NCBI GenBank assembly: GCA_949152475.1
Contig: OX424558.1
Span: 40,850,751-40,914,750 of the forward strand
Reading direction: 5' to 3'
From: Terebella lapidaria
Lineage: Eukaryota > Annelida > Polychaeta > Terebellida > Terebellidae
Length of the DNA: 64,000 nucleotides
Of this stretch, positions 6,301 through 53,905 are shown one piece after another; position 1 is the stretch's first letter; the number at the start of each line of letters is the position of its first letter. The notes below the pieces were generated by a model. The model saw only the letters and a list, made by a program, of their open reading frames with translations, was not told where the DNA came from and ran no database searches. The position numbers were made by a program, and so were the translations under genes.

Positions 6301-6633
6301 TAGTTCAGACCTTATATGGTCAATTTTGTCTCTGCACTGCTTGATACTTCTAATGTTGACATGGCACAAAGTCAGTTTTCGCAGATTATGTGAGGTAGAA
6401 CAATTGAATGAATTGAATTCGGGGCCGGGGTTCAACTCAATCCCGCCAATAAAGCTCAAAAGCATAAAGAGAAATAACAACACAGTTGCAGGACACGCAA
6501 GTATGTCACAACAGGTGCGCAACTGCTTGTATGGTCGTGCAGTCACCTGAGACCGACATGACGCTAGGAAGTGGCAAACACAAGCATGAAAGTTCCCAAT
6601 CGCAGCTCTGTACTGTTCAGTTGAAACCCCCAT
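3309..6633 (-). pseudogene. LINE ORF2 (endonuclease + reverse transcriptase), broken copy
   Basis: Same protein as the frame at 9123-12,442. It starts with MGVSTEQYRAAIG at 6633 and reads through the hydrophobic leader, the 2A-like motif and the APE endonuclease to a TGA at 5278-5280 where the sister copy has TGG. The same frame reopens at 5244 and carries the whole reverse transcriptase (FADDTSIF present) to a TAG at 4024-4026, which both copies share. A 1-nt deletion near 3961 and an A-run frameshift near 3663 break the C-terminal part (3309-3970), which ends with the CCHC-like tail. Near 5360-5390 a duplicated TATACATTACGCGTA replaces a different short segment without changing the frame. 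It cannot encode a complete ORF2. Confidence 0.88.
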
Positions 6634-7774
6634 ATCTTAAACAAGTTATTGATAAGTCAAAAATGCAAACAAAATTAATACCGGTGTCACCAATATACTA
6701 CTACAACACTATCGTATTCAAACAAACAAAAACAATGAAAACAAGTACCTGCTAGATATTATATATAGTTAGCTTGTGGCACTTAGATGTACACAACATG
6801 AGAGAAAATTAGCTACTCAGCGACTACATATAAATACTACAATGAAAGATATTCAAGGAATATGACAAAAAGAATCTTCATGGAAGTGTTAGTTGGAGCA
6901 AGCAAAAACATAGCTTAGTCTGTTAGTCCCTATGAAAATTTCAGAACTGTCAAGTAATACAGTACCTTACAATATAATCTACATAACATGCATTCAAATT
7001 GAGATAATATGCATTGCAACAGACATAAACTAGCCATCATATGCATGTGAATGATTCTTTCTAGCATTCACATAATAAAATGTTAGTAACTTATATACAA
7101 AACATGCAGTTTGACATGATATGTGGCATATCAATTATATACCACATGTGAAAGTTGCATGTCAGTACCATGCAATACATGAAGGTCATCCACAATAATA
7201 TAGAACTATACAGCAAAGTGGGCATGCAAAGATATGTACATATAAGAGCTGGCACCAGTGACACAACTGTCAGTTAAATTGATTTTTGATCTGATGACAG
7301 CCACAAAAGATGACAAACATCAAGTTTCAATCTGACAGCTTAGAAAACCATAAAGTACCAGTTCCTGTCAAAAATCTATTCAAGTACATGCACTCAGAAT
7401 CTGACATAATATAATTTTCATCAACATGTCAAATTTGTGTAATCAGAAGACTAAACCAACACTAGTCCAGAGTACTAGAAAATATCAGGTAAGTATAATA
7501 TATCACAGGGAGATTAGTTGTCTAGTTATGCTTTACAAAGCATATCAAAACATCCAGATTCACAGGAGAAATTGCATCAGAGATTCACACATATGTGACA
7601 ACACAAGCAAATTTTGTGATGCAATTGCATGACTTGAGACTGATAAGGAGATGCCAGAAGATCACCAACCATGAATCTGACACATTCAAAGTGCAAGTAC
7701 AAAGCAACTTATTGGCATAATAATAGATAATGATAGCATGGTCCAAAGATGCTCCAATCAAAGACATACTTGCA
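6634..7774. other. LINE inter-ORF spacer (duplicate copy)
   Basis: About 1.1 kb of AT-rich sequence between the ORF2 start and the minisatellite, equal to 12,443-13,583. It has many stop codons in all frames and no domain, RNA structure or splice signal that can be supported. TATATATAGTTAGC-type stretches near 6760-6780 could be promoter-like, but this is not supported further. Confidence 0.6.
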
Positions 7775-9122: not shown

Positions 9123-12100
9123 TCAGATGTCAGATGAACTGATTTGTATATTACCCAATCTATCGAATAGCATTTGTCTTTCATCATTGAAAAGTGGACA
9201 TGATAAAAAATAATGGTCTGGGTCTTCCTTCACATAGCCACATCGGCAAGCTGCGCTATCCGCCACATGTAAATTAGTATGTAAGTGATCATTCAAAAGA
9301 CTGCAGCCAGTTCTCATGCGGGCTAAATGAACATTTGCATAGCGATCACCCCTATAATACAGGGGGTTGCGCATAGTATCATTAGTGGAAAGATTGTGAG
9401 TGAAGATCCTTCTGTTAGTAGCATTACGCACGTCTATGGGCAATGCGTTCCAAGACGTAATCGTAGACGGAAAAAAGAGGATGACATATACTTATGTCGA
9501 GATGGTATAGCAGTGAAATTAGAGGATGATCGTAGAGCATAAGCTGATCTTTGGCCTACAGACTCCGGCAAGCATTCAATCAAATATTGTGGACAATGAC
9601 CATTGACAATGTTATAAAAAAGACATAGTCTATGACGTGTTCTTCTCTCGGAGAGAGGAATCCAATTTAATTCAGCCATTAACGCGGCTGAATTACAGCG
9701 GGCAGTGGCGCCTGTTTCTAGTCTAGCGGCTTCCTTTTGAACTTTGTCAAGTTTTGATAAATCAGTTAAATTGGCCCCAGCCCAAACAACATCTGCATAC
9801 TCCATAATAGGTCTAATGCAGGAAATATATAAACGTTCCTAAGATAATCTGTCCATTTTAAATTTGAATGGCTTGATAACATTCAATACCTTAGTAGCTT
9901 TAGACGCAAGGTCTGATATGTGGCTGCTCCAAGAAAGATCCCTAGTGAAAGTTACGCCAACATGTTTATGACTGGTAGTCTCCTCAATAATGGAGCCATT
10001 CAAAAATACAGGGGGATGGTGCCCGAGATCACGTTTCTTGGATATAACGAGAGATTCGGATTTTGAAGCATTGAAAGTGACCAGCCACTTGTCAGCCCAT
10101 GATGAAATCGCTTGTAGATCCTCATTGATCAAAATCGCCCCTTCCTCTCTATCATTTACTTCAATGAAAATAGATGTGTCATCTGCGAAGAGACGTATAT
10201 TACAATTCTTAACAGCAAGCGTGATATCATTAATAAAGACAAGAAATAACAACGGCCCAATAACGGATCCCTGTGGCACACCCGCACTTACAGGTGACCA
10301 GCTTGACGATTGCCCATTGATGACAACTCGTTGTGTGCGATTTTCTAGATAGTCAGTGAGCCATACATGCAAATCATTATGTATACCATATTTCTTTAGT
10401 TTGAACAATAAACCGCTATGCCACACTCTATCGAAAGCTTTGCTTATATCTGAAAATATAGCCCTGATTTCCCTCCCTCTCGACACAGTTTCACAAAAAC
10501 TATTATACATTTCTACGAGGTGTGTAACCGTAGATCTACCTGGTATAAATCCAGATTGCCATACTGACAGCAGAGAATTCTCCTCGAAAAATGACATCAA
10601 AGAGCTGAAAACCAATCTTTCCATGGTTTTCCCAACTGCGCTCAAAAGGGACACGGGTCTATGGTTATTGGGCAAGGAACGGTCATGTTTCTTAAAGAGT
10701 GGAATTACATTTGCCTTTTTCCAATTCGTCGGAAATTTGCATAGCGTTAAAGAGAGTTTGAACAATTGACACAGGCTTCTGTGTATTGCAGGTGCTGTTT
10801 CTCTCAGAAGACGCTGGCTTATGCCGTCCGGACCGAACGCTTTGTTTGGATTGAGAGAAAGTAATTGTTTGGCAACATCAAGCTCACTAAATTGTATATT
10901 TGATAAACAAGCCTCTGTGAGTTGTGGATAATCATCGGGTAACACTGCATTGGAGTCATCAAGGAAAGAATTCAGCAAGAAGTGTTCATTAAATTTCTCA
11001 GCCTTTGACTCATCGCTGACTATCACCTCATCATTCGCACAAATAACTGGTATTGACATATTAGAAGTGCCTAGTATTTTTTTGGATTGTGCCCACCATT
11101 TTCGTGGGTTTGAATGAACATTAGCAGCGGCGCTATGAAGAAATTTTTGTTCGTGTTCATTCCTACATCTTTTTATTTCGGCAAAATATACATTACGCGT
11201 ACTACGAAAATGTGTCCATGCTTCGGGAGTATTGTCGTATTTGGCTACTTTGTGTGCCCTGTCTTTGGCGCGTTTAAGGCGACGTGAATGCCCATTAAAA
11301 AATGGTTTGTCAGCAGGTCTGACAGTCACAACCTTATTAGGGATATATTCTCTGGCCGCTGTTAGAAGACATTCTGTCCATTTCCTTTCAGCAATATCAA
11401 TATCATTGGTGTCAAAACAGACACTCCAGTCAGTGTTACACAGTCTATTTCTCAAACCAATAAAATCGGCTCTACTATAATCCCAGATATGACGAATAAA
11501 GCATTTGGTTTTCTGCACTTGGAAATTTAAAGTGGCAGCGACGGTGTGGTGATCATTATACGAAACAGGATCTACCACCTTGATATCTCTCACCAAACTT
11601 GGACAATTCGATAGAATTTGGTCGAGTTCAGAGGAACAGTCACCAACAATTCGAGTAGGTTGGTTGACATGCTTAGTTAAGCCATACGTGTAAACAAAAT
11701 TTCGTAAGTTTTGGCCATGAGTTGTGTTTGGATCTGCGTTGAGATCACCAGTTATAATACAGTTACCGATATTAGTGGTAATCCCACGATTGTAACTTTC
11801 TTGTAATGTGTCCCAAAAGCTCTCCTGCTCGTCAGTGCGATAGGCGACGCAAAGCAAAAATTTATTGTTATTTGATCTAATTTCCAACCACATTTGTTCC
11901 ACTTGATCAGAATATTCTAAGTCGTCTCTACGCTTCACGAACAATTTGTCAGACACCCACGCCAAAACACCCCCTCCCCGCTTACCCTCTCGGCATAGTG
12001 CTATGGGATCATGATAACCATGAAGTTTATATGCGTTTCTAGAGTCATCCTCCAAATCACTGCTATTTAGCCAAGTTTCACTTAAAGTGATAATATCATA

Positions 12101-12442
12101 CTCAGGGCATAGTTCAGACCTTATATGGTCAATTTTGTCTCTGCACTGCTTGATACTTCTAATGTTGACATGGCACAAAGTCAGTTTTCGCAGATTATGT
12201 GAGGTAGAACAATTGAATGAATTGAATTCGGGGCCGGGGTTCAACTCAATCCCGCCAATAAAGCTCAAAAGCATAAAGAGAAATAACAACACAGTTGCAG
12301 GACACGCAAGTATGTCACAACAGGTGCGCAACTGCTTGTATGGTCGTGCAGTCACCTGAGACCGACATGACGCTAGGAAGTGGCAAACACAAGCATGAAA
12401 GTTCCCAATCGCAGCTCTGTACTGTTCAGTTGAAACCCCCAT
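9123..12442 (-). pseudogene. LINE ORF2: leader-2A, APE endonuclease, reverse transcriptase
   Basis: The ATG at 12,442 opens an 867-residue frame to a TAG at 9839-9841. Residues ~41-62 are strongly hydrophobic (VLLFLFMLLSFIG) and run straight into GGIELNPGP (63-71), a 2A-like ribosome-skipping motif. Residues ~85-305 hold APE endonuclease motifs: HVNIRS, SETWL, RGGGV, GDLNAD, LDQILSN and a final NDHHTV. Residues ~480-860 hold the reverse transcriptase: HRPVSLLSAVGK, QSGFIPGRST, SDISKAFDRVW, AGVPQGSVIGPLLF and the catalytic FADDTS. After the TAG the same frame continues (MEYADVVWAGANLTDLSKL), then shifts at an A-run near 9473-9478 into the C-terminal part with a CRCGY...HYFLSC zinc-like tail ending at 9123. 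It supplies nicking and target-primed reverse transcription. Two lesions make this copy probably inactive. Confidence 0.9.
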
Positions 12443-13583
12443 ATCTTAAACAAGTTATTGATAAGTCAAAAATGCAAACAAAATTAATACCGGTGTCACC
12501 AATATACTACTACAACACTATCGTATTCAAACAAACAAAAACAATGAAAACAAGTACCTGCTAGATATTATATATAGTTAGCTTGTGGCACTTAGATGTA
12601 CACAACATGAGAGAAAATTAGCTACTCAGCGACTACATATAAATACTACAATGAAAGATATTCAAGGAATATGACAAAAAGAATCTTCATGGAAGTGTTA
12701 GTTGGAGCAAGCAAAAACATAGCTTAGTCTGTTAGTCCCTATGAAAATTTCAGAACTGTCAAGTAATACAGTACCTTACAATATAATCTACATAACATGC
12801 ATTCAAATTGAGATAATATGCATTGCAACAGACATAAACTAGCCATCATATGCATGTGAATGATTCTTTCTAGCATTCACATAATAAAATGTTAGTAACT
12901 TATATACAAAACATGCAGTTTGACATGATATGTGGCATATCAATTATATACCACATGTGAAAGTTGCATGTCAGTACCATGCAATACATGAAGGTCATCC
13001 ACAATAATATAGAACTATACAGCAAAGTGGGCATGCAAAGATATGTACATATAAGAGCTGGCACCAGTGACACAACTGTCAGTTAAATTGATTTTTGATC
13101 TGATGACAGCCACAAAAGATGACAAACATCAAGTTTCAATCTGACAGCTTAGAAAACCATAAAGTACCAGTTCCTGTCAAAAATCTATTCAAGTACATGC
13201 ACTCAGAATCTGACATAATATAATTTTCATCAACATGTCAAATTTGTGTAATCAGAAGACTAAACCAACACTAGTCCAGAGTACTAGAAAATATCAGGTA
13301 AGTATAATATATCACAGGGAGATTAGTTGTCTAGTTATGCTTTACAAAGCATATCAAAACATCCAGATTCACAGGAGAAATTGCATCAGAGATTCACACA
13401 TATGTGACAACACAAGCAAATTTTGTGATGCAATTGCATGACTTGAGACTGATAAGGAGATGCCAGAAGATCACCAACCATGAATCTGACACATTCAAAG
13501 TGCAAGTACAAAGCAACTTATTGGCATAATAATAGATAATGATAGCATGGTCCAAAGATGCTCCAATCAAAGACATACTTGCA
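12443..13583. other. LINE inter-ORF spacer
   Basis: About 1.1 kb between ORF2 and the minisatellite, AT-rich, with no supported coding region, RNA gene or splice sites. It is identical, or nearly so, to 6634-7774. By position it would form the leader upstream of ORF2 in the element's RNA. Confidence 0.6.
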
Positions 13584-14601
13584 ACACAGGACAGAATTGT
13601 ACATCTCAGGACATGCATCACAGGACAGGATTGTACATCACAGGACATGCATCACAGGACAGGATTGTACATCACAGGACATGCATCACAGGACAGAATT
13701 GTACTTCACATGACATGTAACACAGGACAGGATTGTACATCACAGGACATGCATCACAGGACAGGATTGTACTTCACATGACATGTAACACAGGACAGGA
13801 TTGTACATCACAGGACATGCATCACAGGACATGATTGTACATCACAGGACATGTAACACAGGACAGGATTGTACATCACAGGACATGCATCACAGGACAG
13901 AATTGTACATCACAGGACATGCATCACAGGACAGAATTGTACATCTCAGGACATGCATCACAGGACAGGATTGTACATCACAGGACATGCATCACAGGAC
14001 AGAATTGTACATCTCAGGACATGCATCACAGGACAGGATTGTACATCACAGGACATGCATCACAGGACATGATTGTACATCACAGGACATGCATCACAGG
14101 ACATGATTGTACATCACAGGACATGCATCACAGGACAGAATTGTACATCTCAGGACATGCATCACAGGACAGGATTGTACATCACAGGACATGCATCACA
14201 GGACATGATTGTACATCACAGGACATGCATCACAGGACATGATTGTACATCACAGGACATGCATCACAGGATAGGAGTGTACAGCACAGGACATGTAACA
14301 CAGGACAGGAAATGCATCACAGGACAGGATTGTACATCACAGGACATGCATCACAGGACAGGATTGTACTTCACATGACATGTACCACAGGACAGGATTG
14401 TACATCACAGGACATGCATCACAGGACAGGATTGTACATCACAGGACATGCATCACAGGACAGAATTGTACATTACAGGACATGCATCACGGGACAGGAT
14501 TGTACATCACAGGACATGCATCACAGGACAGGATTGTACTTCACATGACATGCACCACAGATCAGGATTGCACATCACAGGACATGCATTACATGACAGG
14601 A
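13584..14601. repeat. 34-bp minisatellite, long array (~30 units)
   Basis: Same unit as 7775-8263, whose ~14 units correspond to the first half of this array; a further ~530 bp follow. The array lies between ORF1 and ORF2, so it would be transcribed within the element RNA. On the element's sense (minus) strand each unit carries two TGTGATG phrases. With a 34-bp period these place TGA stops in every frame, so no protein is made from it. There are no unique spacers, which rules out a CRISPR-type array. Confidence 0.95.
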
Positions 14602-14759
14602 TAAAAAGAGTCACAAAACACACAACACACTTATGTATGGTTGTTATACATCAGTATTACAGCTTATGTACATTATTGCAAACTTTAATACAGAAACTCA
14701 TGTGGACACAACTTGTGATCCAAACATGCACAAATCTAACATGCAAAAGCAGTTAATGC
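14602..14759. other. Short spacer between minisatellite and NADAR reading frame
   Basis: AT-rich sequence directly after the stop of the NADAR frame on the minus strand. No feature beyond a stray ATTACAGCTTATGTACATTA-like stretch; probably 3' flank of ORF1. Confidence 0.5.
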
Positions 14760-23587: not shown

Positions 23588-25996
23588 ATGAGCGACACAG
23601 TACCGTTGTCACAGGAGCAACAACCGACCGGTCTTTTCGACTCCCTTGGCGACCATTCGACCCTGAGATCGGCTTCGCCGCCTGTCGACCTGATTGAGGA
23701 GTACCTCGGTGAAGACCCGCTAGCGCCCCTGCACACGGTTAGTGACATTATAAGTGCGCATGCAAGGGCGTATTCGTCCACGCCGGCTAGAGCAGCCGGG
23801 AAAAGTGACTTTATCGGCAGAGACTATACACGCTCACGTCAAAGAGCGAATGTGTATGATGGTGTCGACCCAGAATCCCCTACGGTGAATGTTCGGCCTG
23901 TAACCATAGAAACGTCCATGGTTACGCACCCGCCAAGTGACTCTCGGATACGGCAGTGGGTTTGTGACACTGACAATGTTACAGAACTGGTACTGCCGAG
24001 CGCATATTCGGCATCCTGACCTCCGGTACAATCGATATCGGCAAGACGGTACGACCCCGCGCCAGAGATGTACTCGCGCATACCGACCGAGCCAACGGTC
24101 GTAGAGTACGTTCGACCCAGCCAGACGAGATCGACCCCAAGGAGCGTTCCGGCGTCAGCTGCTGCCCCGACCGCGACATCTCCGCAACCGCGACAACCCA
24201 GCGACGCGGCAACGGAATCCCGCGACCACACGCGACCAGCGCGACCGCGACAATCACCGTCGACATCAAGTCGCCGACCTCACGACTCCGACATGCCGGC
24301 CTCCGACTCGCGCCCCCTCGCGCCGACCGCTTCCCGACCATCGCCGACCGACGGAGAACAGCCGCGCTTCGCCCCGCCGCAAGACCCAGTTGTGTCTGCT
24401 CCGGCAGAAAGTGTTGTGCCCATGATCGGACCTCCGATCTCTCAGCCAATCGGCTACACCACTGGATACGGTGTACCGCCAGTCGGATATTATCACCCCC
24501 ATGTTGGCTACGTGAATCCACCAACTGGATATGGTGGTATTCCGACAGATATCGGCTATCACGGTGCGCAAAGTGGAGTAGCGTACCATGGTGTGGCCCC
24601 GAACGGATCGGTATACCGATGTCCACCACCGGCCATCTTTCCACCCTCCACCGGAGTGCCGTGGGTGACGCCACCGTATGGTCAACCGGACCCAGCCACG
24701 CAAGCACCGTATGACTCTGGCTACGCTCCGGCACCACCCGCCGCTTCGCTCGCCGTCTCCGCGACGACCGCGCCGGTTGTCCCAGCGAGTGCGACTCCGC
24801 CAGTTCCGACCACTACGACTCCAACTGTTCCGGCCATCGCGACTTCAGCGGATCCGGCTACGACCACGCCGACTGTGGTGAGTGTTGATACGCCCACGCC
24901 TCAGAGACTCACGTCTGAGCCCCAAACGTTGGTTACGGCTAAAACGGCTCAATGGCGTGCGACCTTCAAGGAGGGCAATCTCACCCAATACATCCGGAGT
25001 TTCGAACAATTTACTGCGGCCTTCACATATTCCGACCTGAATAAAACAACGACCTTCCGGAATACGCTGCGCGGCCGCGCCGAAGCGTTAGCTCTGAACA
25101 TTCCGGTCGAAACTCCTTGGGAGGAGTTCCGTTGTCAGCTCTTGGAGGGCTGGGAACCTGCACCTCGTTGGCAGTCCAAAAGGGACGACTTTCCGTTTCT
25201 AAAAAGAGAGCGGAAAGAGAATGCGGAACATTACTTGGAACGGCTTCAAGCTCTGGCTGAGCAAGTGTTTGATGATGTGACGCCAGAGTCCCGGCAACGG
25301 ACAGTGATCTCTCAGTTCGTCAACGGCCAACCCGACCATATTGCCGACAGACTATGCGTGCTCACTTTCAATAGTTACAGTGAGGCACTTACGGCCGTCC
25401 TCAAAGCTGAAAGCCGTCAGCAACGGACAAACAGAGACCGTCATAAGGGCACGCGACGTGCCGACATCTCCGTGAACGGATACACGGATGATGATTGTGT
25501 CGACCAAGAACTGTCTTGTGCTATGGGACAGATCAATCAGGGAGAAACGCCGACCCCTGAACAAGTTGCAGCTTATTACGACCCTGCCGACAGTGACACG
25601 ACCGGCCTTCAAGGATGTGAAGAACATTCCGTGCCAGCCTGTTCACGCGAATGGGTGGCGGAAGCTTTCCAGAGCGTCCTCAGCGACGAGCATGGACTCT
25701 GTGAGGAGACAGCTATCTATTCCGTCCTACGAACTACGGCCCCGACTAAAGGTGATCGGCCTCCACAGCCCGGACGACCAGCCGTGTGCTTTTTCTGCAA
25801 GAAGCCCGGCCATCACTGGATGCGGTGTTTTCGGCTGAAAGACGTTTTAGTACGCAATGGCATGAAGCCACTGACTTTTCGACCTAAAAGTGCTGGTACT
25901 GACCGAAGGACAGATCAAGTATTGTCAGTACCAAACCAAACCGGCAACCAAACCAAGTCGGCCCCGACAGTGCCACCGGCTCAGTCGTTAAACTAG
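23588..25996 (+). pseudogene. Gypsy gag with one in-frame stop
   Basis: One frame of ~803 codons from the ATG at 23,588 (MSDTVPLSQEQQPTG) to the TAG at 25,994-25,996, interrupted only by a TGA at 24,017-24,019. The region 24,068-24,900 is rich in Pro, Thr, Ser and Tyr-Gly repeats and looks disordered. The conserved gag core follows (QWRATFKEGNLTQYIRSFEQ, LRGRAEALALNIPVE, FPFLKRERKENAEHYLERL). A CCHC zinc knuckle (CFFCKKPGHHWMRC, 25,787-25,828) sits near the end, as expected for nucleocapsid. Role: particle assembly and RNA packaging. The pol frame follows in the -1 frame at ~26,000. The stop makes this copy a pseudogene unless read through. Confidence 0.85.
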
Positions 25997-26010
25997 TAGA
26001 GGAAGGTGCT

Positions 26011-28998
26011 GTGGAGCAAGGGCCTTCCGGGCAACAGAACAGTATTACGTGCTCCACACCCGTGGCTGTCGAAACTACCAAACCGACAGTGCCACCAGTT
26101 ACGACTCAACAGCCGGCCCGGCCCGCACCTCAGCTCCTTGAAGGGGTGTGTACCAAGTGTCGAGCTTCGACCCCAAAGCCGGCTCTCTCTCATGAAGGGG
26201 TGTCCGCGCCACTTCCACAACGGCCTCCACGGGAAAACCGTCGTCCTGAAGGGGTGTCACCCCCGACCGCCAAAGGCACCGGAACAGATAGTATGTCCGA
26301 GGTGGAGTGGATCTCCGACGACGGAGGGTTCTACGCGTTCCCATACGGACCGGAATCCAAATTGCCGCCGCTGCACACACTCTTCAAGCCACCGCCAGAC
26401 GACCCCGCAGTTCCGGCCATCATAGACAATTCACGAGCGGCACACGGATGTTGGAAGTTGTCGGTACGTGTCGGAGACAAAACAATGAAAGCCGTACTCG
26501 ATTCCGGGGCACAGATCTCCCTGCTCAGACGGGATCAGCTATGACATGTCCCTGCCGACCAACGACAGTTATGACACACCTCGGCCACGATTCGTGATGT
26601 CAACGGACAGTCAAGCCCAATCGATGGATTGATCGACCTCCCAATCCAGGTCGGAACCAACCATATGATTGTGACATTTTGTGTAGCTGACATCCACGAC
26701 GGCATGATACTCGGCATGAACTTTTTCCGGCAAGCTCACGCTGTGGTGAACTACGGCGAAGGAACAATACAGGTACACAAAGAAATCCTGTTTGCGCACA
26801 AGGACATTGAAGCCAATGTTGTAAGAATGGCTGTGCGCCGAGCCGTCACCGTCCCCGCACGTAGCGAGGCGATCATAGAGCTAATCCCGACCTCCAGAGT
26901 TCGTGTTCGGCAGCATCCACGGATGATTCAACCACTGACGGCCTTTCCCGAGGACACTGACCTCATCATGGGAAGAACATTAACGACCTTGGACCGGCAA
27001 TGTGTAAAGGTGTCTGTAGTCAATACGGCAGATACCGGTATTACACTTACTCGATCCGACCCTGTCGCCATAGCCAGTCCGATCGAGAGTGTTGTCGGAG
27101 CTCTACCAAGACCCGGAGAGGAGCCCGACCTGTCCACGGCCGACGCCAGTCACTACCGCGACCTGCCGCCACATCTACAAGAGATGGTGGATCGCGCCGG
27201 ACTAGCGCCAGAACAACACCGGCGTTGCGCTAACCTGATCCATCAATATCAGGACACCTTCATGCACCCGGATGGACAGTTGGGACGGACCCAAGTCGTC
27301 CAACAAAAGATCGACACCGGCAATTCGGCCCCGATTCGGCAACGTCAACGACGCGTCCCTCAGGCGCAACAGAGCATCATAGATGAGGAGGTCGACAAGA
27401 TGCTTCGCTTGGGGTGCATTGAGCCGTCAGATTCGCCCTGGAGCGCACAGGTAGTGCTCGTGCGGAAGAAAAACGGCCAAGTACGATTCTGCGTCGATTA
27501 TCGGCTCCTGAATGATGTCACCCGCAAGGATTCATATCCGTTGCCCAACATTCAGGACACTCATGACGCCCTGGCGTGCGCTACATACTTTTCGGCCTTG
27601 GACTTGGCTTCCGGCTACTGGCAAGTCGAAGTCGACCCTACAGACAGACCGAAAACTGCCTTTGCGACAAGGAAAGGACTGTATCAGTTTAAGGTTATGC
27701 CATTCGGCCTCAGCAATGCACCGGCAACATTTGAACGGCTAATGGAAACCATACTCCGTGGGTACTTATGGGCACGGTGTATGTGTTACCTGGATGACGT
27801 CATCGCTTACGGCAGAACATTCGACCAGGCACTCGCAAACCTGGAGGCGGTCCTGGATCGGATTAGATCGGCAGGCCTGAAGCTTCAACCCAAGAAGTGC
27901 GAACTGTTCCAGAGGGAAATTCTGTACTTGGGGTTTATAGTGAGCGGCCAAGGAATTCGTGTCGACCCCAACAAGGTTAAAGCCATCAGAGAATGGCCGA
28001 CCCCGTGCGAGATCTCCGATGTCAGATCTTTCCTTGGTTTCGCCAATTACCACAGGCGATTCATCAAGGACTATGCTGAGATCGCCGAACCTCTCGTAGC
28101 ACTCACCCGAAGTGAATGTCATTTCACTTGGGGACCGGCTCAGCGACGCGCTTTTCGGCGGCTCCGCGACGCTCTCATCCAGGCGCCTAAGCTCGCGCAT
28201 CCGACCCAGAGTCCGGATGATTACTTCATCCTCGACACAGACGCTAGCGGCTATGCTGTGGGAGGCGCACTCTCACAGAGGGTCAACGGGAAAAAAATCC
28301 CCATCGGGTTTGCCAGCAAAACCCTATCCCGGACCCAACGGAACTATTGTACCACGTACCGAGAACTACTGGCAGTGGTAGAAATGGTTCAACATTATCG
28401 GCATTATCTTTGGGGTAGGAAGTTCCTCCTCCGGACCGACCACAGCTCCTTGAGGTGGCTCAAGAACTACAGCGACGCGGACGGCATGCTCGCCAGGTGG
28501 CTCGCTAAGTTGCAGCAATACGACTTCAAGATAGAGCATCGGCCCGGCAAACTTCACGGCAACGCAGACGGCTTGTCACGGTGTCACAGTTGCAAACACC
28601 AAGACTGTCCCGGACGACTCGTCACACCTCCAACCGACCCAGAGACAAGTTCCGGAGAACTTCCAGTTCGTCGGGTCACTGTTGTTCCGGCAAAGACAAG
28701 GGCAGACCTCCTGGACAGTGATTCCATAACATCACCGGTCTTACCCCAACTAGTTTCGGCACGCCAAGTTGTTCGAGTCCGTGCTTTGGACGCCACACTT
28801 GATGGGCAAAAGTGGCTTTCGGACTATTCGACTCAGGACATTGTCGCGGCACAGCAAGCCGACCCGAGCGTCGGGAAAGTGCGACAGTGGATGTTGATCA
28901 GGACTAAACCAGACTCTAAGGAGGTAGCGCGCCATGGGGAGGAGGTAAAAACACTTGTTTCCAGATGGAGCCTCCTGGCGCTACAAGACGGGTACTAG
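26011..28998 (+). pseudogene. Gypsy pol, part 1: protease, reverse transcriptase, RNase H
   Basis: Single frame from ~26,000 to the TAG at 28,996-28,998, broken by TGA codons at 26,542-26,544 and 26,572-26,574. Protease: KAVLDSGAQISLL with the DSG triad at 26,500. Reverse transcriptase: APIRQRQRRVPQAQQSIIDE, VLVRKKNGQVRFCVDYRLLN, FSALDLASGYWQV, MPFGLSNAPATFERLM and catalytic YLDDVIAYG (~27,787). The connection has FLGFANYHRRFIKDYAEIA. RNase H: FILDTDASGYAVGGALSQ, TTYRELLAVV, LRTDHSSLRWL, and a final HGNADGLSR. The motifs are the Gypsy set in normal spacing. Both stops fall between protease and reverse transcriptase. Confidence 0.9.
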
Positions 28999-30497
28999 TT
29001 CGGCACGTAAAACCCGACCCCGCTGGACGGCCTGTGGTGCAAACCGTGCTCTCCGTAGCACTCAGAACGCAGGTTTTGCACCAACTTCACCACCTGAAGA
29101 TTGTCGGACATCTCGGCATTCAGCGAACCATCGAGAGAGTCAGGCGCCGATTCTACTGGCCCGGCCTGGCACTGGATGTCGCCCGCTGGTGTGCCCGCTG
29201 CTCGCAATGTGTCACCCGCAAAGGAAAACCGGCCCCAAAACGATCGCCTCTGACACAGTTGCCGACAGGAGCGCCTTTCGACCGGATCGCGATGGACATT
29301 CTCGACACCCACAAAGTCACGGGAAGAGGCCATCGGTATATCCTTGTTGTGTCGGACTATTTCACGAAATATACGGACGCCTTCCCGCTGCGGCGACATA
29401 CCGCCAAAAATGTTGCCGACATCCTGGTAAACAGATGGATAGTTTATCATGGCGTCCCCAAGGCAATCCATAGCGACCAGGGCACCGAGTTCGAGTCGGC
29501 TCTATTTCGGCATGTCGTGCGTCTTCTGGGCGCTAAGAAGATCCGCACGGCCCCATATCGACCTCAGACATTGCTCAACATGCTGAGTGCATTTGTCAGC
29601 GATCGTGCGAACGACTGGGACGTGCACCTGCCATATGTGTTAATGGCCTATCGAACCTCTGTACACTCGTCCACGGGATGCACCCCGCACCTGATGGTGT
29701 ACGGGCACGAGTGTAACTTGCCAGTCGACCTCATGTTTCCGACCTACGACCCTGAGCCTCTACCCCCGTGCGGCCCGTAGTATGTGGAGTATTTGCGGCA
29801 AGCGATCAGGACGGCCCACGGTTTCGCTCAAGACCATCTTGAGAAAGCGGCAATTCGGCAGAAGATGGGTTATGACGCCCACGCCAAGCCTCGACCCCAG
29901 TTCCAACCAGGAGAACTGGTCCGATATTATTATTTGCCCCTCACGCAGAATAATAATTTCCCTCGGCCTTGGACTGGTCCCTGGAAGATCATCGACCGTG
30001 TGACCGAGGTGGACTATCGCATAGCCCTGGTCTCCAACCCTCGGAACACTCGTGTTGTTCATCTGGACGTACTCAAGCCGTACGAAGGTGACAACCAAGC
30101 GGCTCACATCTATTCCGACCCTGTACGACCTTCGACGTCGTCAAGTAAATCCGGCTCAGAGCAATCGGCCGACCCCCTGGGGCTCCTCAAGGAGTTTTAC
30201 TACCCCTGGGAGGTCACAGTGCAAGATCGGCATACAGATACAGACCAAACAGCTGAGTCTGACTCGTCAGCGGACCGAGATCGTAAATCGCGATCTCCAA
30301 CTTCATCCGGCTCAAGTCGTCATCGGCAACGGAAAAGATCACGCAGATCAAGTTCCGACACACCAAAACCGGCACGCAAGACACGCAGGCAAAAGCCTGT
30401 GATATCATCCGACCCCGAGACAAGCGAGGCTACGCCCCCGCCTGCACGACCAAGTCGACCCAAACGCAACGCACGCAGACCGGCCCGCTACAGATAA
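28965..30497 (+). pseudogene. Gypsy integrase, with deleted catalytic segment
   Basis: Continues pol after a frameshift at ~28,985 (frame change at ACGGGTACTAG). Zinc domain: HHLKIVGHLGIQRT...CARCSQC. Core: DRIAMDILDTHK (first Asp) and AIHSDQGTEFESALF (second Asp). After TAPYRPQT the text jumps to LLNMLSAFV: about a dozen residues usual here, including the catalytic Glu, are missing in frame (~29,570). A TAG at 29,778-29,780 splits the frame; the C-terminal part (29,784-30,497) has FQPGELVRYYYLP and the GPF/Y-like WTGPWKIIDRV, then VVHLDVLKPYEG and an Arg/Ser/Pro-rich tail. Without the Glu the strand-transfer site cannot form. Confidence 0.88.
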
Positions 30498-47341: not shown

Positions 47342-47420
47342 ATGACTTTGGCGGGCTGCTCTCAGACCCACGGGGTTCTCTCCACCGTATGTGTCCTGGT
47401 CCTCGTCACTGAGCTAACAG
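47342..47420 (+). CDS. Exon 1: signal peptide
   Basis: Twenty-six codons plus one base. MTLAGCSQTHGVLSTVCVLV begins it; the hydrophobic core (VLSTVCVLVLV) is followed by TELT and a Gly completed by exon 2. The donor CTAACAG|GTGAGA is strong. The first ATG after the acceptor-like CTTACAG is used. Intron 1 is ~3.8 kb. Confidence 0.75.
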
Positions 47421-50400
47421 GTGAGACATGAGAGTGTGGGTAGTCTACACTTACCGTCACCGGTCAGCTACATGACACAGCCGTGTTCAGGAAATAAACC
47501 AGTAAATGATGCGCCACGACCGTATATCACTCACAGCAATCGCGCGCCATTCAAAGGCGGACATGTTTGAGGGGTTTCAGTTTAATTATAACATCAGTTT
47601 TTGTTTTAAAAATGTACATGTATACCAACCACCATAGTCGCGCTAAAATACATCTCAAGAATCATTGCAAACCACACTATCTAAAATTATGATACTGAAG
47701 TCTGCTCGCGTAATTCCAACACGTACATGTATGATAATGACATACATAAGCCTAGCAACGTCTTTTTATCTTGTAATTTTACCTATTTTACACTATAATG
47801 ATAAATGGTAAATATTTCACGAGCTGTATCTTGCAAGTAGTTTAAAGTCAATTAGGACTTGTTCTCACCAAGCCAGTATTGAGGACGAATTGCAGGTCTC
47901 GAAACGACAAACTCGAGTTCTGTCAGTGGCCATGCTATTACTACAGCACAAGCGTGACATAATTGGAAACGAAACAAGACTCTCAGTAAGCGACGATAAA
48001 GCGCGGTTTTTGGCGTAGAAATGAGTCGGTTGGGTTATTTGCGGAGTCCTCGAGCGCCGAGAACGTCCTGTCAGGGTTGATCACGCGAGACTTGGACGAG
48101 ATTCTCCTAGAGGCGTCCACGGTCCGAGAACTGACGTAAGACCGCGGGGCTAGAAGACAGCTAGATCTATCCGGACGTGATGGGGGCAATAAACGGCCTT
48201 TTCGAGGGTGAACTGGCGTGAAATAACTAAAAAGAACAGTATATGCAACAGTCGGATGCAATTTATTATTTTGATCATTTTTGAGGTTATTATTTGTGGC
48301 TTGTCGTATCGTTAGTTATTCTCTTGATGCTTTCGAACAATACACGTAATTCAACGCAATGAGGCCTAATAGTGATATTTTCATATCGATAAACACTTAA
48401 CTGAATCAGCAGGTGTCATCAACATGGGGTTGGTGATAATTTATTATTTGTTATCTGTGTTTCATTTTTTTTTCCAAAAAGCAGGTTTGGTTAATAATGA
48501 GGAGAGCAATACTGATGTGAAGACTTTATTTTAGATTTTTGTCATTATTGATCTTGCCGTCGGATCGAGCTTTCATAATGCGTAGTCAAGAAACACACAG
48601 ACCCTGCCACAATGTCGGTGGTGTGGATTGTTCATGTTGCTGTTATTCACGGTACAGCCATCGTATTTAGGCGAACAAAGGCTCCTACTCTCCTTGACAC
48701 GCGTGACAACCTAGAACTTGATAAGGCCCTCCGCCCAGCAGCGAGTTCACAAACTGAACACGGGCAGTAAAGCTGCCAGGGATAATACAGCGTTAAGATG
48801 ATTAGAAAGTCTATTTTCTTTAGTGGTCCGTCCCTTACATCCACTGGTGCCGCCGATGTGGCTAATTAAATTGATTTAGCTATATGGAGTCAAGTCCCGG
48901 GGAGGAGGCTAGATTGGCCCGCTAGGAAGGAGGGAGGGAGAGAGGGAGAGGGGAGGGGGTGCTAGACCGGGATTATCCCTTGTATACCTGAGTAAGGTCA
49001 CCCAGTATTGACGAAGCTTTGATTGCGGGAATACCCGCTAGTGATATGCTTCATCATATCATTGACCAAGTAATTAGTAGGTACCAATTAAAGCCTTGCG
49101 TCTACAAATCCCCTCGTACTCTCGTACTCAATGAGTGGGACAACTACATCGTTTGCCATATTTGGAGTTAAAGTTACATGAATGAAGTTACCCTTGTAAT
49201 AATGCAGATGAAAAGGATGAAGTGTTGTCAAATCAGGGGAATGGAGATAACAGTAACTGAGCTGGGTCACAGTGAGGCAGGCAATGACGCAGTTCTGGCA
49301 CACACGGTCTCAGGTATGTGTAGTTCAAGGTGACGAACTTGTCCTCAATCGACCTTCAAAAATCCACTGTTAATCCACTGTCTAAGGAGACATGCTAACC
49401 AAGTTGCTGTACGTTTTGAAAAAGCTTTGACTACTAATGCTATAATTTACACCTGATCAAAGTGTCTACCTGCAGACACGGACAGCTATAGAGAGAGTGT
49501 TCCATACACCGTGTGTGTTACTCTCATCAAGCTGTTCCAACAGGAGTTCATACCTGGGGATGTTATGTAGCGTGAAATATTCAGCTATATAGTGTTTCTG
49601 TGACCTGGTATCCCGCGGAGTATGGTATTACACCTAGCTACTGTAGGAAATATAATGCCCAGCTGAGATAACCTTTGCAGCAGTGAATCTCTGCAGACTG
49701 CCGGAGTTGTCTGAGATAAGGTGCGCTCCTCACTGATAGCACGCTACATACACCGGAATCTCCGGCTGATCTACAGCAGACAGGGATGATAGGGATATAA
49801 TAACATGTAAACAGGGAATAAACTGCATAGAACACTGCTGCATGTATGTGTATATAATTGTGTTAGATGGACTTGTGGTGGATCAACGTGTACTCACATC
49901 TAGAATCATCATACCACACTCAAACTTCCCAATCGGGACCAGAACAGATCACATCCCGCCTGCCCGGGGGACATCAGAACAACAATTATTGTCACAATTC
50001 ATTACATCACTAATTGACAATCTTGATCTTCGGATCACGCTGAAGTTCATAGAAATCAATTTAGCGCAATTACATGTATTTGGGGGGGGGGGGGGGGGGA
50101 GTTCAACTTGAAATCTAAATTTAGGATGTACATGTCATATTTATGGACGAACAAGCAAAAACTGCTGAAGATAATTACATTTCTTGTCAGCTCTGAACTT
50201 GGTGCAATGTGACATGTATTCATTCTCTTTTAATATGAGTCAGTGAAAACAGACAACATCAATGCACGGGTAATAAGCTTGAATATTTTCTCCTTTCATT
50301 GTCAAATAAAGACGGGGTAAATCAAAGGCTCCAAAAAAGCACGAAAACAGGCAATTTCGGGAAATGGTACAAAATATAAGAAGTCTCAATTATTCATCTT

Positions 50401-53400
50401 CTATGGTCTAGATCTCGACTAGATCGTATTCCATTTTCTGGGGAATAGTTTGGATGTTTCGTGCTGCTCAGTCCGATCTTGTGTTACCGGCGGGAGAACG
50501 CTAGTACCAAAGACTGGTGCATCACTCCTTATCTAGCAAGCTCTTGGAATGCCATCAGGCCGGATTGTGGGCCTCTATACACAAAACTACAGGAATACTC
50601 AATAAAAGTGGTTGTGAAACACTCACATTTATTTCGGGTAGCTACAAAGCGTAGAAATACGAGAAACACACAGTGGCTCGACAACAAGGCTATAAATTCG
50701 ATTCATATTTCAGCATAGCGGCGAGGGTTCTCTGTTTGTCGGGCGATGTCAGAATGTTCGATGGGGGCCAGATTTACGTTCCAACGCTCTCAGTTAAACG
50801 CTTGGACCCATCTGTTGGCGGCTGATTTTGCGCTGTTGCTATTTTGCCTGCGGACGATAAGGGACCTGAGATTGCTAAAAGCAAACCCTTAGAGAAATCA
50901 CTTAACGAGCCACAGAAACGTGTCACAAATGCTAAATACTTGCCAACTCTGATGTTCCGCGCACCATCAAATGGAAAACTTTCCAAGGGCTCTTCGAATG
51001 GCTAATTCAAAATTTCATATTTGACACCACTCAGATAGGCCTCGAAGTCATCAAAAATGTTATTATATCCCTACATGTACCATGCTATCACTTATGAAAT
51101 CTATACATGACATGAATAATATCATTTTCCAATTTGATTGCATTTGTACATATCATGTACCCCTTATCCTGCTTTAAAAGCTCATTTACTATCTTTCATG
51201 TGTTCGTTCTGTACCCAACAGGCGCCTTCTACCACCTCGCCTCCCCGTCTCACCCCTGTCACGTGACCGCGCAGGAGAACGACACTGTTGACGTCATCTG
51301 TCAGTACAAGGAGGGGTTCGTGACGTCATCACGGACGGGGAACTCCCTGGCGTGCGTGTCTCAGACGGCGGTGTGGCAGCGGACGGACTACCGGCTATTG
51401 ACGAACCTGTCCGACAGCGGCAAGTATGGCGTGTGGGAGGCCGCGCCGGGCTGGCGGATCGCCGAGAGACAGAGGATCTCCCTGCTGCGGGTCCGACGGC
51501 TCCAGCCCGAGGACCTGGGACTCTACCAGTGCCGCCTCCAGTGTCTGACCGAGGACAGAGTCCACATCAACCTACACATGGCCAGCCTCTGTCTGCAGCA
51601 GGCCCCCGGATATTGTGAGTATACAACAACCTACTATTATGTAATGTGTCACAATGTAGAATAGGGACATCTGATTTATTTACACATTCTTGGTGCCACG
51701 GGAGGGGTGAGAATGAATGCTTAATATGTTAAGAGAAAAATTGAAGCACTGCGACTTATCGCCAATTCTCCACGTACAATATTTCTGTAAGTCCTAATTT
51801 TGTTTATCAATAAAACTGCTTGCTGTTTGATGTAAAGGTGAGTCCCCCTGGAAATCAGCGCCACTGTGTGTTTGATTTATCACACAATGAGTCAGGATTC
51901 CCCATGAAATATTTTTCTTCATATCGGTGTAGGTTTGATGAAACATTGCGAATTATTTCCACTCCATTCCTCCCGGCCTGCCGCGCCAAAGGATCTGTAT
52001 TACATAACAAGCTGGGATACTTTGTGATCAAGAAAACTTTAACCAAATTATTTACATCTGTATGATTCAGGGACAAAATCAATAAAAGAGCCATCGATTA
52101 CATTAATCACTGTTCATGCACAAATAACTTTGCTCCAGTGATAAACTTTGTCAACTCACATAGTTCAACACAGTTCGATTGATTCGAACTAATAAACGGA
52201 CTGTAAATAATCTCCGACTTCATTTATCTTCAGTATACTGCCAAATCATCCGTTATTAATTCGGTTTTTGTATTTATTAGTGGGTCAAATATTAGCATAT
52301 ATTCCATGCTTGAGTTGAATGCACTCTAATAATTGATTTCGATTTCAAAAATATAATGGAATTACTCAAAAGCTTCACTTTTCTATGCGGCCCTTTATGA
52401 CGCTTTATCTCGGTATATTGACAGCGATCTGTGCGGCTGGAGCCAGTGACACGAAGTGCTCGTGGACGTTCGCGAACGGAATCTGTGACCGGGAGTGTGA
52501 CAATGAGGAAAATCTTTACGACGGCTTTGACTGCTCCCCGCCTGTGGCCGCCTGTCAGAGCGCCGCCGGCGCCGACAGCTGCCGCCTGGAGTTCGCTAAC
52601 GGCGTCTGTGACTCCGAGTGTGACTCCCGCGCATGTGTCTGGGATGGCGGGGACTGTATCGACAAGCCGCTGGTGTTTGCGGCGGACACGATCATGTTGA
52701 GTCTGGCGCCGTGGTACCAGAGGACAGGCAAGACCGTGGACGTCAAGGAGGTGGGCCGGGTGTTCTCCCGCCTTCTGCGGACCATTGTCAGAGTGATGCC
52801 GGAGGACTGGCCCGGCACCCGGTCCCGGGATAGGGACGTGTCGTGGCACAGACCGGATCGCCGGGGTTACGACTCGGTCCGGAGGATATATCTCAAGATA
52901 GACAACACCATGTGCCAGAGAAAGTGCTTTCACACCGCGGATAGCGCAGCCAAATTCATAGACTTGTCTCTAAAGAATAAATGGGACCCCGGGATACCGA
53001 TAACAGCCATTGGCAGTAAGTATACCACCTTTTTAAAAGTAGACTTCCTCAGTGCTAAATTCTCTCAAAGTAGCCTGTCTATGGAATATCTGTTTTTCAT
53101 ACATATGTGACTTTTCTGATCTGTGCAGTTTTGAGTCGGACTGTGAACCAGTGTGAGTTAGAGAACAATACGCTACTGCACATCGACCTGCCCACGTCGC
53201 CTCAGAAGGATCCCGTCCACAACATCTACAGCTACACGTATGCCGAGTCCTCGGAGTCCGGCCTACCGCCCACCTGGCTCCTCGTCACCGCCACCATCGG
53301 CGGCGTTGTCGTCCTCACCCTCGTCATCGTCATAATCGTCATCATCCTCCGCATCCGCAAGCTCAGCAAAGAGGAGCGCCACCGCGCCGTCGCCGACATC

Positions 53401-53445
53401 CACTTGATCCAGGACAAGGGGGCGCCACAGGGCACGGACGTCTGA
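47342..53445 (+). CDS. Ig-LNR-NOD type I membrane protein, Notch-like negative regulatory region (four exons)
   Basis: Joining 47,342-47,420, 51,222-51,614, 52,425-53,015 and 53,129-53,445 gives 459 codons; every junction is GT-AG and phase 1. Order: signal peptide (1-~27), V-type Ig domain (~36-150; C53, W78, D124-x-G-x-Y-x-C130), two LIN-12/Notch repeats (160-194, 201-235), NOD (~238-295), basic cleavage-like stretch (289-311, HRPDRR), NODP (~312-360, RIYLKIDNTMC then CFHTADSAAKFIDL), stalk, membrane span (~404-428) and a 31-residue tail ending GTDV. LNR-NOD-NODP is the Notch module that shields the ADAM cleavage site. Notch itself has three LNRs, many EGF repeats and RAM-ankyrin-PEST, none of which are here. 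Likely a cell-surface receptor or shed ectodomain; partner unknown. Sequons are at NDT, NLS and NNT. Confidence 0.85.
47421..51221 (+). other. Intron 1 (~3.8 kb)
   Basis: GTGAGA...CCAACAG. It holds no recognised gene; open frames at 47,983-48,261, 48,647-48,844 and 50,461-50,718 lack motifs. It contains a 36-nt all-purine run (48,924-48,959) and an 18-G run (50,082-50,099). Its length leaves room for an alternatively used or missed exon, such as another ligand-binding domain, but none could be recognised. Confidence 0.6.
51222..51614 (+). CDS. Exon 2: immunoglobulin V-type domain
   Basis: 393 nt, phase 1-1, so the domain is a symmetrical, shuffle-ready exon. Protein residues 28-157. Cysteines 39, 53, 71, 130, 134 and 150; C53-W78-C130 with DLGLYQC is the Ig core, and the extra cysteines suggest one or two added disulfides. 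Acceptor ACCCAACAG|GCGCC, donor GATATT|GTGAGT. GC-rich codons contrast with the flanking introns, as expected for coding sequence. Confidence 0.82.
52425..53015 (+). CDS. Exon 3: two LNRs, NOD and first part of NODP
   Basis: 591 nt, phase 1-1. LNR1 (C160, 169, 178, 182, 194; FANGICDREC...DGFDC) has five cysteines: the position usually paired with the first Cys is replaced within DNEENLYDG. LNR2 (C201, 210, 219, 223, 228, 235; FANGVCDSEC...WDGGDC) is complete. Both keep the Asn-Gly and Asp residues that bind calcium in this family. NOD follows (PLVFAADTIMLSLAPWYQ, FSRLLRTIVRVM) and then the NODP strand RIYLKIDNTMC. Acceptor ATATTGACAG|CG, donor TTGGCA|GTAAGT. An in-frame ATG at 52,385 lies in the intron and is not the start. 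Confidence 0.85.
53129..53445 (+). CDS. Exon 4: stalk, membrane span and short tail
   Basis: Residues 355 (split codon) to 459. LSRTVNQCELENNTLLHIDL finishes the NODP/stalk; TWLLVTATIGG plus VVVLTLVIVIIVIIL is the membrane span; RIRKLSKEERHRAVADIH begins the tail, positively charged next to the membrane (type I topology). The last residues G-T-D-V fit a class I PDZ ligand (S/T-x-hydrophobic). TGA at 53,443-53,445. Acceptor CTGTGCAG|TT. There is no RAM-like Trp motif, ankyrin repeat or nuclear signal. Confidence 0.82.
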
Positions 53446-53905
53446 CTGACACCAGGGGCGCCACAGGTCACGGACGTCTGACTGACACCAGGGGCGCCAC
53501 AGGGCACGGACGTGTGAGGGACACCAGGGGGCGCCACAGGGCACGGACGTGTGAGTGACGCCAGGGGGCGCCACAGGGCACGGACGTGTGAGGGACACCA
53601 GGGGGCGCCACAGGGCACGGACGTGTGAGGGACACCAGGGAGCGCCACAGGGCACCGATGTCTGACTGACACCAGGGGGCGCCACAGGGCACGGACGTGT
53701 GAGGGACACCAGGGGGCGCCACAGGGCACGGACGTGTGAGGAACACATGGGGGGCCACAGGGCACGGACGTGTGAGGGACACCAGGGAGCGCCACAGGGC
53801 ACGGACGTATGAGGGACACCAGGGGACGCTACATGGCATAGACATTTGATTGACACCAGGTAGGGGGGGGGGGGGGGGCACAGAGCACGGACGTCTGACC
53901 GATAC
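53422..53905 (+). repeat. 36-37-bp minisatellite starting inside the last codons
   Basis: About 13 units; GCGCCACAGGGCACGGACGT recurs at 53,422, 53,458, 53,494, 53,531, 53,568, 53,605, 53,642, 53,679, 53,716, ~53,753, 53,789, ~53,826 and ~53,878. The first unit encodes A-P-Q-G-T-D-V-stop of the receptor; the rest lie in the 3' UTR. A 16-G run (53,863-53,878) interrupts the last units. The opposite strand stays open in several frames because the repeat lacks stops; this is not a gene. Confidence 0.92.

Follow-up and report, generated by a model that had tools for sequence, protein, structure and literature searches.

Notch receptors combine EGF repeats, three LNRs and ankyrin and RAM sequences. 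LNR, EGF and ankyrin (ANK) domains are listed together as the diagnostic set for Notch (PMC2770060, Table 2), NOD and NODP are treated as Notch domains in passages of three studies (PMC2770060, PMC5356439, PMC6040629), and the criteria of an annelid Notch survey exclude proteins without EGF repeats, three LNRs and ankyrin repeats (PMC5356439). The gene described here lies in a 64-kb stretch of the 761.6-Mb genome of the annelid Terebella lapidaria (the window; G000:C4:40850751-40914750). The protein read from it lacks EGF repeats, ankyrin repeats and RAM and has two LNRs, yet it carries the sequence and fold of a Notch-type negative regulatory region (NRR). It is further unlike Notch in having one immunoglobulin (Ig) domain, apparently in place of the EGF repeats and LNR-A, an LNR1 without its fifth cysteine, an additional juxtamembrane cysteine, a long juxtamembrane segment, and a PDZ-type tail.

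Other described systems resemble the window protein in single respects. SEA-like juxtamembrane proteolytic switches occur in dystroglycan, PCDH15, EpCAM and other proteins, where the neighbouring domains named in one account are cadherin-like or thyroglobulin, not LNRs (PMC6586460); the window protein, unlike these, matches the Notch NRR itself. GNPTAB, the pappalysins and other LNR proteins have LNRs in common with it, and their weak matches are confined to the LNR part. The binders of synNotch receptors are often of the Ig type. In these engineered molecules a chosen binder is placed before the Notch switch (SynNotch in PMC6586460), whereas the window protein is natural, has two LNRs and contains no transcription factor. 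By analogy, the predicted receptor would work most like a natural synNotch counterpart without the transcription factor.

Computation establishes exons 2 to 4 and their order, a family to which the gene belongs, the Ig and NRR folds, constraint on the coding sequence, and that no EGF, ankyrin or RAM sequence is found nearby. The reading favoured here goes further and, taken as a whole, seems to us slightly better than an even bet: a predicted single-pass receptor, derived from Notch but not itself a Notch, stapled by a disulfide and anchored to a PDZ protein.

Gene model and folds

Residue numbers throughout are those of a four-exon model of 459 residues (Table 1). The exons have GT/AG borders and phases 1/1/1, and they join without an internal stop, which bears out the in-frame splicing, all in phase 1, proposed in an earlier note on this DNA. 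Hydropathy has a peak from residue 11 and shows a single membrane span at about residues 403-427; residues 429-459 form a tail before the stop codon, so that the one span and 31-residue tail of that note are also confirmed.

Table 1. Exons of the gene model and the repeat at its 3' end, in window coordinates
Feature	Position	Strand	Content
Exon 1	47342..47420	+	Start codon and signal-like peptide, residues 1-26 plus one base; GT donor, phase 1; uncertain
Exon 2	51222..51614	+	Six-cysteine Ig domain and short linker to LNR1, up to residue 157
Exon 3	52425..53015	+	Two LNRs and HD (NOD/NODP) up to S2 strand beta-5, residues 158-354
Exon 4	53129..53445	+	Remainder of S2 strand, juxtamembrane segment with Cys363, span, tail ending GTDV
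37-bp minisatellite, 12.1 units	53417..53860	+	Tandem Repeats Finder; first unit encodes GAPQGTDV and the stop codon

Pfam recovers the two LNRs expected from the earlier reading (61.8 bits; cut-off 21.2), and two are present by alignment in each of the four copies of the gene described below. NODP scores 26.8 bits, barely above its cut-off of 25. Among sequences of solved structures, the Notch1 NRR matches the window protein with E 2.8e-19, the best stretch being residues 167-360. The predicted structure agrees with the Notch NRR fold, the LNRs being followed by a SEA-like heterodimerization domain (HD; NOD/NODP), a feature shared with Notch receptors; the packing of the LNRs on the HD is of low confidence in this comparison. 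The Ig domain is predicted to form a beta-sandwich with core cysteines and a tryptophan, and all 50 listed fold matches are Ig domains by title. Because the best of these are a mixture of Ig types, the V-type assignment made earlier is better called plausible, while the Ig fold itself stands.

Copies in the genome and relatives elsewhere

Across the genome, Pfam LNR gives 11 matches. Eight of them come in pairs, one pair in each of four family genes, of which three lie within about 107 kb on contig C4 and one on C13; two belong to the canonical Notch gene on C13, and the last, on C12, is in a separate gene that we take to be GNPTAB. A query with the Ig exon finds four places in the genome, which are the same four genes, and the transmembrane (TM) exon gives 10 rows, the four strong ones again being these genes and the other six having E of 0.018 or worse. 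In all four copies exons 2 to 4 have matching borders and open frames and keep the same strand and order, and the phases of the Ig/NRR and NRR/TM junctions are identical. Since the Ig and TM exons match the same four loci and a homologue is found in Lamellibrachia, a chance origin of the exon set is ruled out.

That homologue is the best of five proteins retrieved at E up to 10 in a first search, from an uncapped set of 6958 candidates. P0001 of Lamellibrachia satsuma (395 residues) is 36% identical to the query over 87% of its length (E 3.3e-61) and has the same order of Ig, two LNRs, NODP, span and short tail; the earlier note had called for a search for this order in other lophotrochozoans. 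P0001 is without a signal peptide and lacks about 30 residues of the HD, a gap that is apparently a gene-model error by comparison with P0003. A profile search, in which the best 8000 candidates were scored, gave at least 38 proteins with E no higher than 1. At least 33 of these, mostly single exons, were read as family members from their alignments, and five as other LNR proteins (P0037 and P0038 judged from the result table alone). Organism labels stand on two of the 33 members, both from annelids, Lamellibrachia and Paralvinella; the Ig exon of Paralvinella palmiformis is 61% identical to the window Ig and is annotated alone as an Ig-like protein of 162 residues. With the LNRs masked, at least 28 proteins, four of them new, were found among the best 8000 candidates scored; P0001 was not relisted, and the lists from this and the profile search miss true family members. 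No named family with the order Ig-LNR-NOD-NODP-TM appeared in the protein searches, and no description of an Ig-LNR-HD protein was found among the titles listed and passages covered in a literature search whose coverage lay largely outside subscription journals, in keeping with the earlier note, to whose author no named family with this order was known.

The gap between the Ig and NRR exons, presumed intron 2, measures 12.9 kb in copy 2 as compared with 0.2-0.8 kb in the other copies, and it looks as though it has been swollen by an insertion. This gap with its retroelement-like frames, the Paralvinella exon annotated by itself, and the in-frame ATG and hydrophobic stretch that also precede the NRR exon of the window gene might all suggest that an Ig gene and a neighbouring NRR-TM gene have been wrongly fused in the model. 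Such an error is very improbable in view of the common order, strand and junction phases of the three exons at four loci and of the Lamellibrachia protein, which unites Ig and NRR; moreover, copies 2 and 3 lack an in-frame methionine ahead of the NRR exon, and the one in copy 4 begins a weakly hydrophobic stretch only.

The ratio of nonsynonymous to synonymous substitution rates (dN/dS) between copies is 0.12-0.20 for the NRR exon and 0.27-0.45 for the Ig exon (four of six pairs computable in each case) and 0.24-0.58 for the TM exon (five of six pairs), dS being high and the values therefore rough. The coding sequence is under constraint between copies.

Divergence is unevenly spread between copies 1 and 2. 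Measured in 20-codon windows, their identity over the length of the Ig exon climbs from 0.50-0.72 to 0.87-1.00, the differences being concentrated in the N-terminal half of the domain, and in the NRR exon it is 0.90-0.98 over the LNR part and 0.40-0.78 thereafter. The longest identical run was tested for 15 exon pairs against 2000 codon shuffles, the pair of copies 2 and 4 being excluded. For copies 1 and 2, none of the 2000 shuffles reached the observed runs of 65 bases in the Ig exon and 44 in the NRR exon. Two runs shared by copies 2 and 3 were matched in six shuffles, and the other eleven tests were matched in 45 or more. The patchy near-identity of the tandem copies on C4 suggests gene conversion.

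Ty3/Gypsy-like reading frames are seen at three places in this region: in the window itself (24020-30497, + strand), inside presumed intron 2 of copy 2 (G000:C4:40923371-40929132), and between copies 2 and 3 (G000:C4, about 40958637-40967788, - strand), the last being similar to those of the window.

Probable descent from a Notch NRR

The structural alignment with Notch begins at residue 1469 of Notch2 and residue 1493 of Notch1, and LNR1 has the spacing C-x8-C-x8-C-x3-C, which is that of LNR-B in the Notch of the same genome. From the start of the alignment and the cysteine spacing we infer that LNR1 corresponds to LNR-B and LNR2 to LNR-C, the Ig domain standing in for the EGF repeats and LNR-A.

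The intron between exons 3 and 4 sits at the position of the Notch S2 site. It follows ...PITAIG in the window protein and ...PVHSVK in the genome's own Notch, with identical phase and at the same codon past the conserved proline, the Notch intron being placed from splice sites as read from the sequence. The shared intron position and the fold match argue that the family descends from the NRR of a Notch. A tree built from 24 NRR rows sets 21 of them apart from P0022 and the two Notch rows with support of 100/99; the tree is unrooted, it includes two Notch rows only, and the human one is a long branch. P0022 has the family change in LNR1, yet its NOD is detectable by Pfam, and it looks intermediate between Notch and the family.

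Pfam finds no EGF repeat, ankyrin repeat or RAM in the window protein. Queries with the EGF, ankyrin and RAM sequences of the genome's own Notch gave best E values of 0.62, 7.5 and 1.7, respectively, in the 184-kb C4 region, and as a positive control the same queries did recover the Notch gene itself. The lack of these three elements claimed in the earlier note is borne out by these searches of the protein and of the 184-kb region. Another explanation of the Notch-derived NRR and the common intron position makes the gene a shortened Notch paralogue serving as a decoy for the ligands Delta or Jagged. The ligands of Notch bind its EGF repeats, and since the protein has no such repeat and none was found in the 184-kb region, this is the least probable of the alternatives that were weighed.

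Orphan cysteines and a candidate staple

In the LNRs of Notch, cysteine 1 bonds with cysteine 5, a pairing that fits the joint loss of both from LNR2 of the relative P0008. In LNR1 of the family, Cys5 is missing from 17 of 17 rows that have a letter there (20 aligned), while Cys1 is retained in 13 of 13. In the alignment of 15 related exons with exon 4, a further cysteine stands nine residues from the start of this last exon, on the membrane side of S2; it is present in 14 of 15 aligned tails (P0034 is not alignable there). The equivalent stretch of the genome's own Notch, SSNDPPPPTTNNVLL, contains none. Past the signal peptide the ectodomain of the window protein has 20 cysteines, distributed as six in the Ig domain, five in LNR1, six in LNR2, two in the HD and one in the juxtamembrane segment. 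One bond between LNR1 and the juxtamembrane segment would explain both the orphan Cys1 and the added cysteine, which suggests a disulfide between Cys160 (LNR1) and Cys363 (juxtamembrane) that staples the switch. Because it would span both sides of the S2 strand, such a bond would leave the ectodomain attached after cleavage alone, and a pull on the Ig domain would bypass the HD.

One alternative is a plain force gate with no staple, in which the ligand pulls on the Ig domain and lifts the LNRs, an ADAM protease cuts at S2 and gamma-secretase cuts the span, the short tail is freed or degraded, and Cys160 and Cys363 link a receptor dimer or pair elsewhere. The NRR fold is indeed kept under constraint, the S2 strand is retained along with Ala332, a small residue of the last helix that is invariant in eight aligned rows, and covalent dimers are common among Ig receptors. 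Nevertheless this alternative is unlikely, since a single intramolecular bond fits both the persistence of Cys1 of LNR1 in all 13 rows after loss of its partner and the presence of the juxtamembrane cysteine, and since Pfam sees no signalling domain in the tail.

It is about as unlikely that no regulated cleavage takes place and that the NRR is a rigid, uncut stalk for an ordinary PDZ-anchored Ig receptor of adhesion or recognition. The juxtamembrane segment would suit a stalk, with about 48 residues, by counting, from the S2 position to the span, as opposed to 12-13 in Notch (PMC2726630). So would the furin-like S1 motif, which by eye is apparently inconstant across the family, and the possible staple itself. 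A stalk, however, would hardly need LNRs and a whole SEA-like HD held at dN/dS of 0.12-0.20 (four of six pairs).

In the stapled receptor that we favour, the Ig domain would bind a partner carried by a different cell or surface, and it would occupy the place that LNR-A has in Notch. LNR1 (LNR-B) and LNR2 (LNR-C) would pack on the HD and bury the cleavage strand at the Notch S2 position. The Cys160-Cys363 disulfide would keep the module closed, and a pull on the Ig domain would be borne by the disulfide, sparing the HD; shedding would then need both an ADAM cut at S2 and loss of the staple. The C-terminal T-x-V would anchor the receptor to an intracellular PDZ protein, and the receptor, rather than yield a nuclear fragment, would either retain or release a complex for recognition or adhesion that is scaffolded by PDZ proteins. 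It is also possible, though rather doubtful, that the protein is a redox-locked Notch switch, with Ig for EGF repeats and LNR-A, which is shed only if force or protease is joined by reduction or isomerisation of Cys160-Cys363, and whose sensor is varied by gene conversion that exchanges Ig and LNR segments within the tandem cluster. Of the claims made in the earlier note, a Notch-type NRR with an Ig domain is thus retained, but its Notch-like force gate is complicated by the candidate disulfide and by LNR-A and the AB linker being gone or replaced by the Ig domain and its linker.

Of 16 tails, 13 finish in [ST]-x-hydrophobic, the form of class I PDZ ligands, and the window protein, which ends in TDV, is one of them; about 0.03 PDZ-type ends per tail would be expected from tail composition, although the tails are related and the 13 are no independent count. 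The PDZ partner envisaged in the earlier note gains support at the level of this motif. Delta too has a C-terminal PDZ motif, ATEV (PMC5356439), and since both tails carry such motifs shared scaffold partners are conceivable. Tail length could vary through repeat change at the minisatellite that overlaps the end of exon 4. The tail of P0031 reads through several repeats of the GTDV motif.

Evidence against a stapled receptor

Several results weigh against the reading just described. Neither NOD nor any Ig family or V-set model was matched by Pfam in the window protein at an E limit of 10, at which HMMER filters nevertheless discard most matches with E >0.1. Of the NOD/NODP pair on which the earlier note would have had its case judged by profile scores, NODP alone passes its cut-off and NOD has no match; of its V-type Ig domain, the fold is supported and the V-set assignment is plausible. 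Some support for both comes from relatives, in P0022, where NOD scores 42.3 bits (cut-off 20), and in P0019, where the best V-set score is 23.2 bits, under the cut-off of 26, and from the fold matches. In the predicted NRR the placement of the LNRs has low confidence (predicted local distance difference test, pLDDT, 37-64), and the model ends at the S2 strand and so omits Cys363. Either Cys160 or Cys363 could instead join two receptors, which is the chief alternative to the staple. Copy 2 has lost one core cysteine of its Ig domain and has an odd cysteine total, and three tails (P0025, P0031, P0033) run on past an internal GTDV. In Notch1, LNR-A and the LNR-AB linker plug the S2 site, and activation is favoured when both of these are removed together with LNR-B (PMC3145759); in view of these data a module with two LNRs might be leaky.

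The 5' end of the gene model is also uncertain. The peptide of exon 1 holds a strong hydrophobic stretch, but it matched only itself in the regions searched; no counterparts of exon 1 were found in copies 2 and 3, for which the last base of that exon was supplied by assumption to set the frame. Upstream of exon 2 its frame stays open as far as an in-frame ATG, after which comes a moderately hydrophobic stretch, and likewise in copies 3 and 4, that of copy 4 being clearly signal-like in appearance; copy 2 has no such ATG and hydrophobic stretch directly before the Ig domain. The window gene may therefore start, and have its signal peptide, in exon 2 rather than exon 1. The signal peptide of the earlier note keeps its hydrophobic stretch, but it lies in an exon for which no homologue was found in the regions searched, and it competes with the ATG before exon 2. 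The order Ig-NRR-TM is independent of exon 1.

Open frames upstream of exons 2 and 3 (51116-51221 and 52337-52424, both + strand) reach in-frame ATGs with hydrophobic stretches. They may represent alternative starts, or they may be polypyrimidine tracts in translation; they are no proof of a start, because such tracts, which precede acceptors, likewise give hydrophobic residues.

Other features of the window

Two copies of a non-long-terminal-repeat (non-LTR) retrotransposon, near-identical by eye, lie on the - strand at 9839-12445 and 3309-6636. Each contains frames like those of an endonuclease and a reverse transcriptase and, close to its start, the sequence GIELNPGP, which resembles a 2A-type ribosome-skipping motif. 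A tandem repeat occupies 13835-14756 (+ strand); for several hundred bases its open frame consists of repeated units such as HHRTELYISGHASQD.

Implications

If the favoured reading is true, a natural family that combines the switch with an Ig domain and has no nuclear output would reveal which features of the Notch switch are essential, and an evolved Ig-NRR design with two LNRs would be usable in synthetic biology. The swapped cysteine allows a direct test of the route by which force reaches the S2 strand. More broadly, the family may show what the Notch proteolytic switch does outside Notch.

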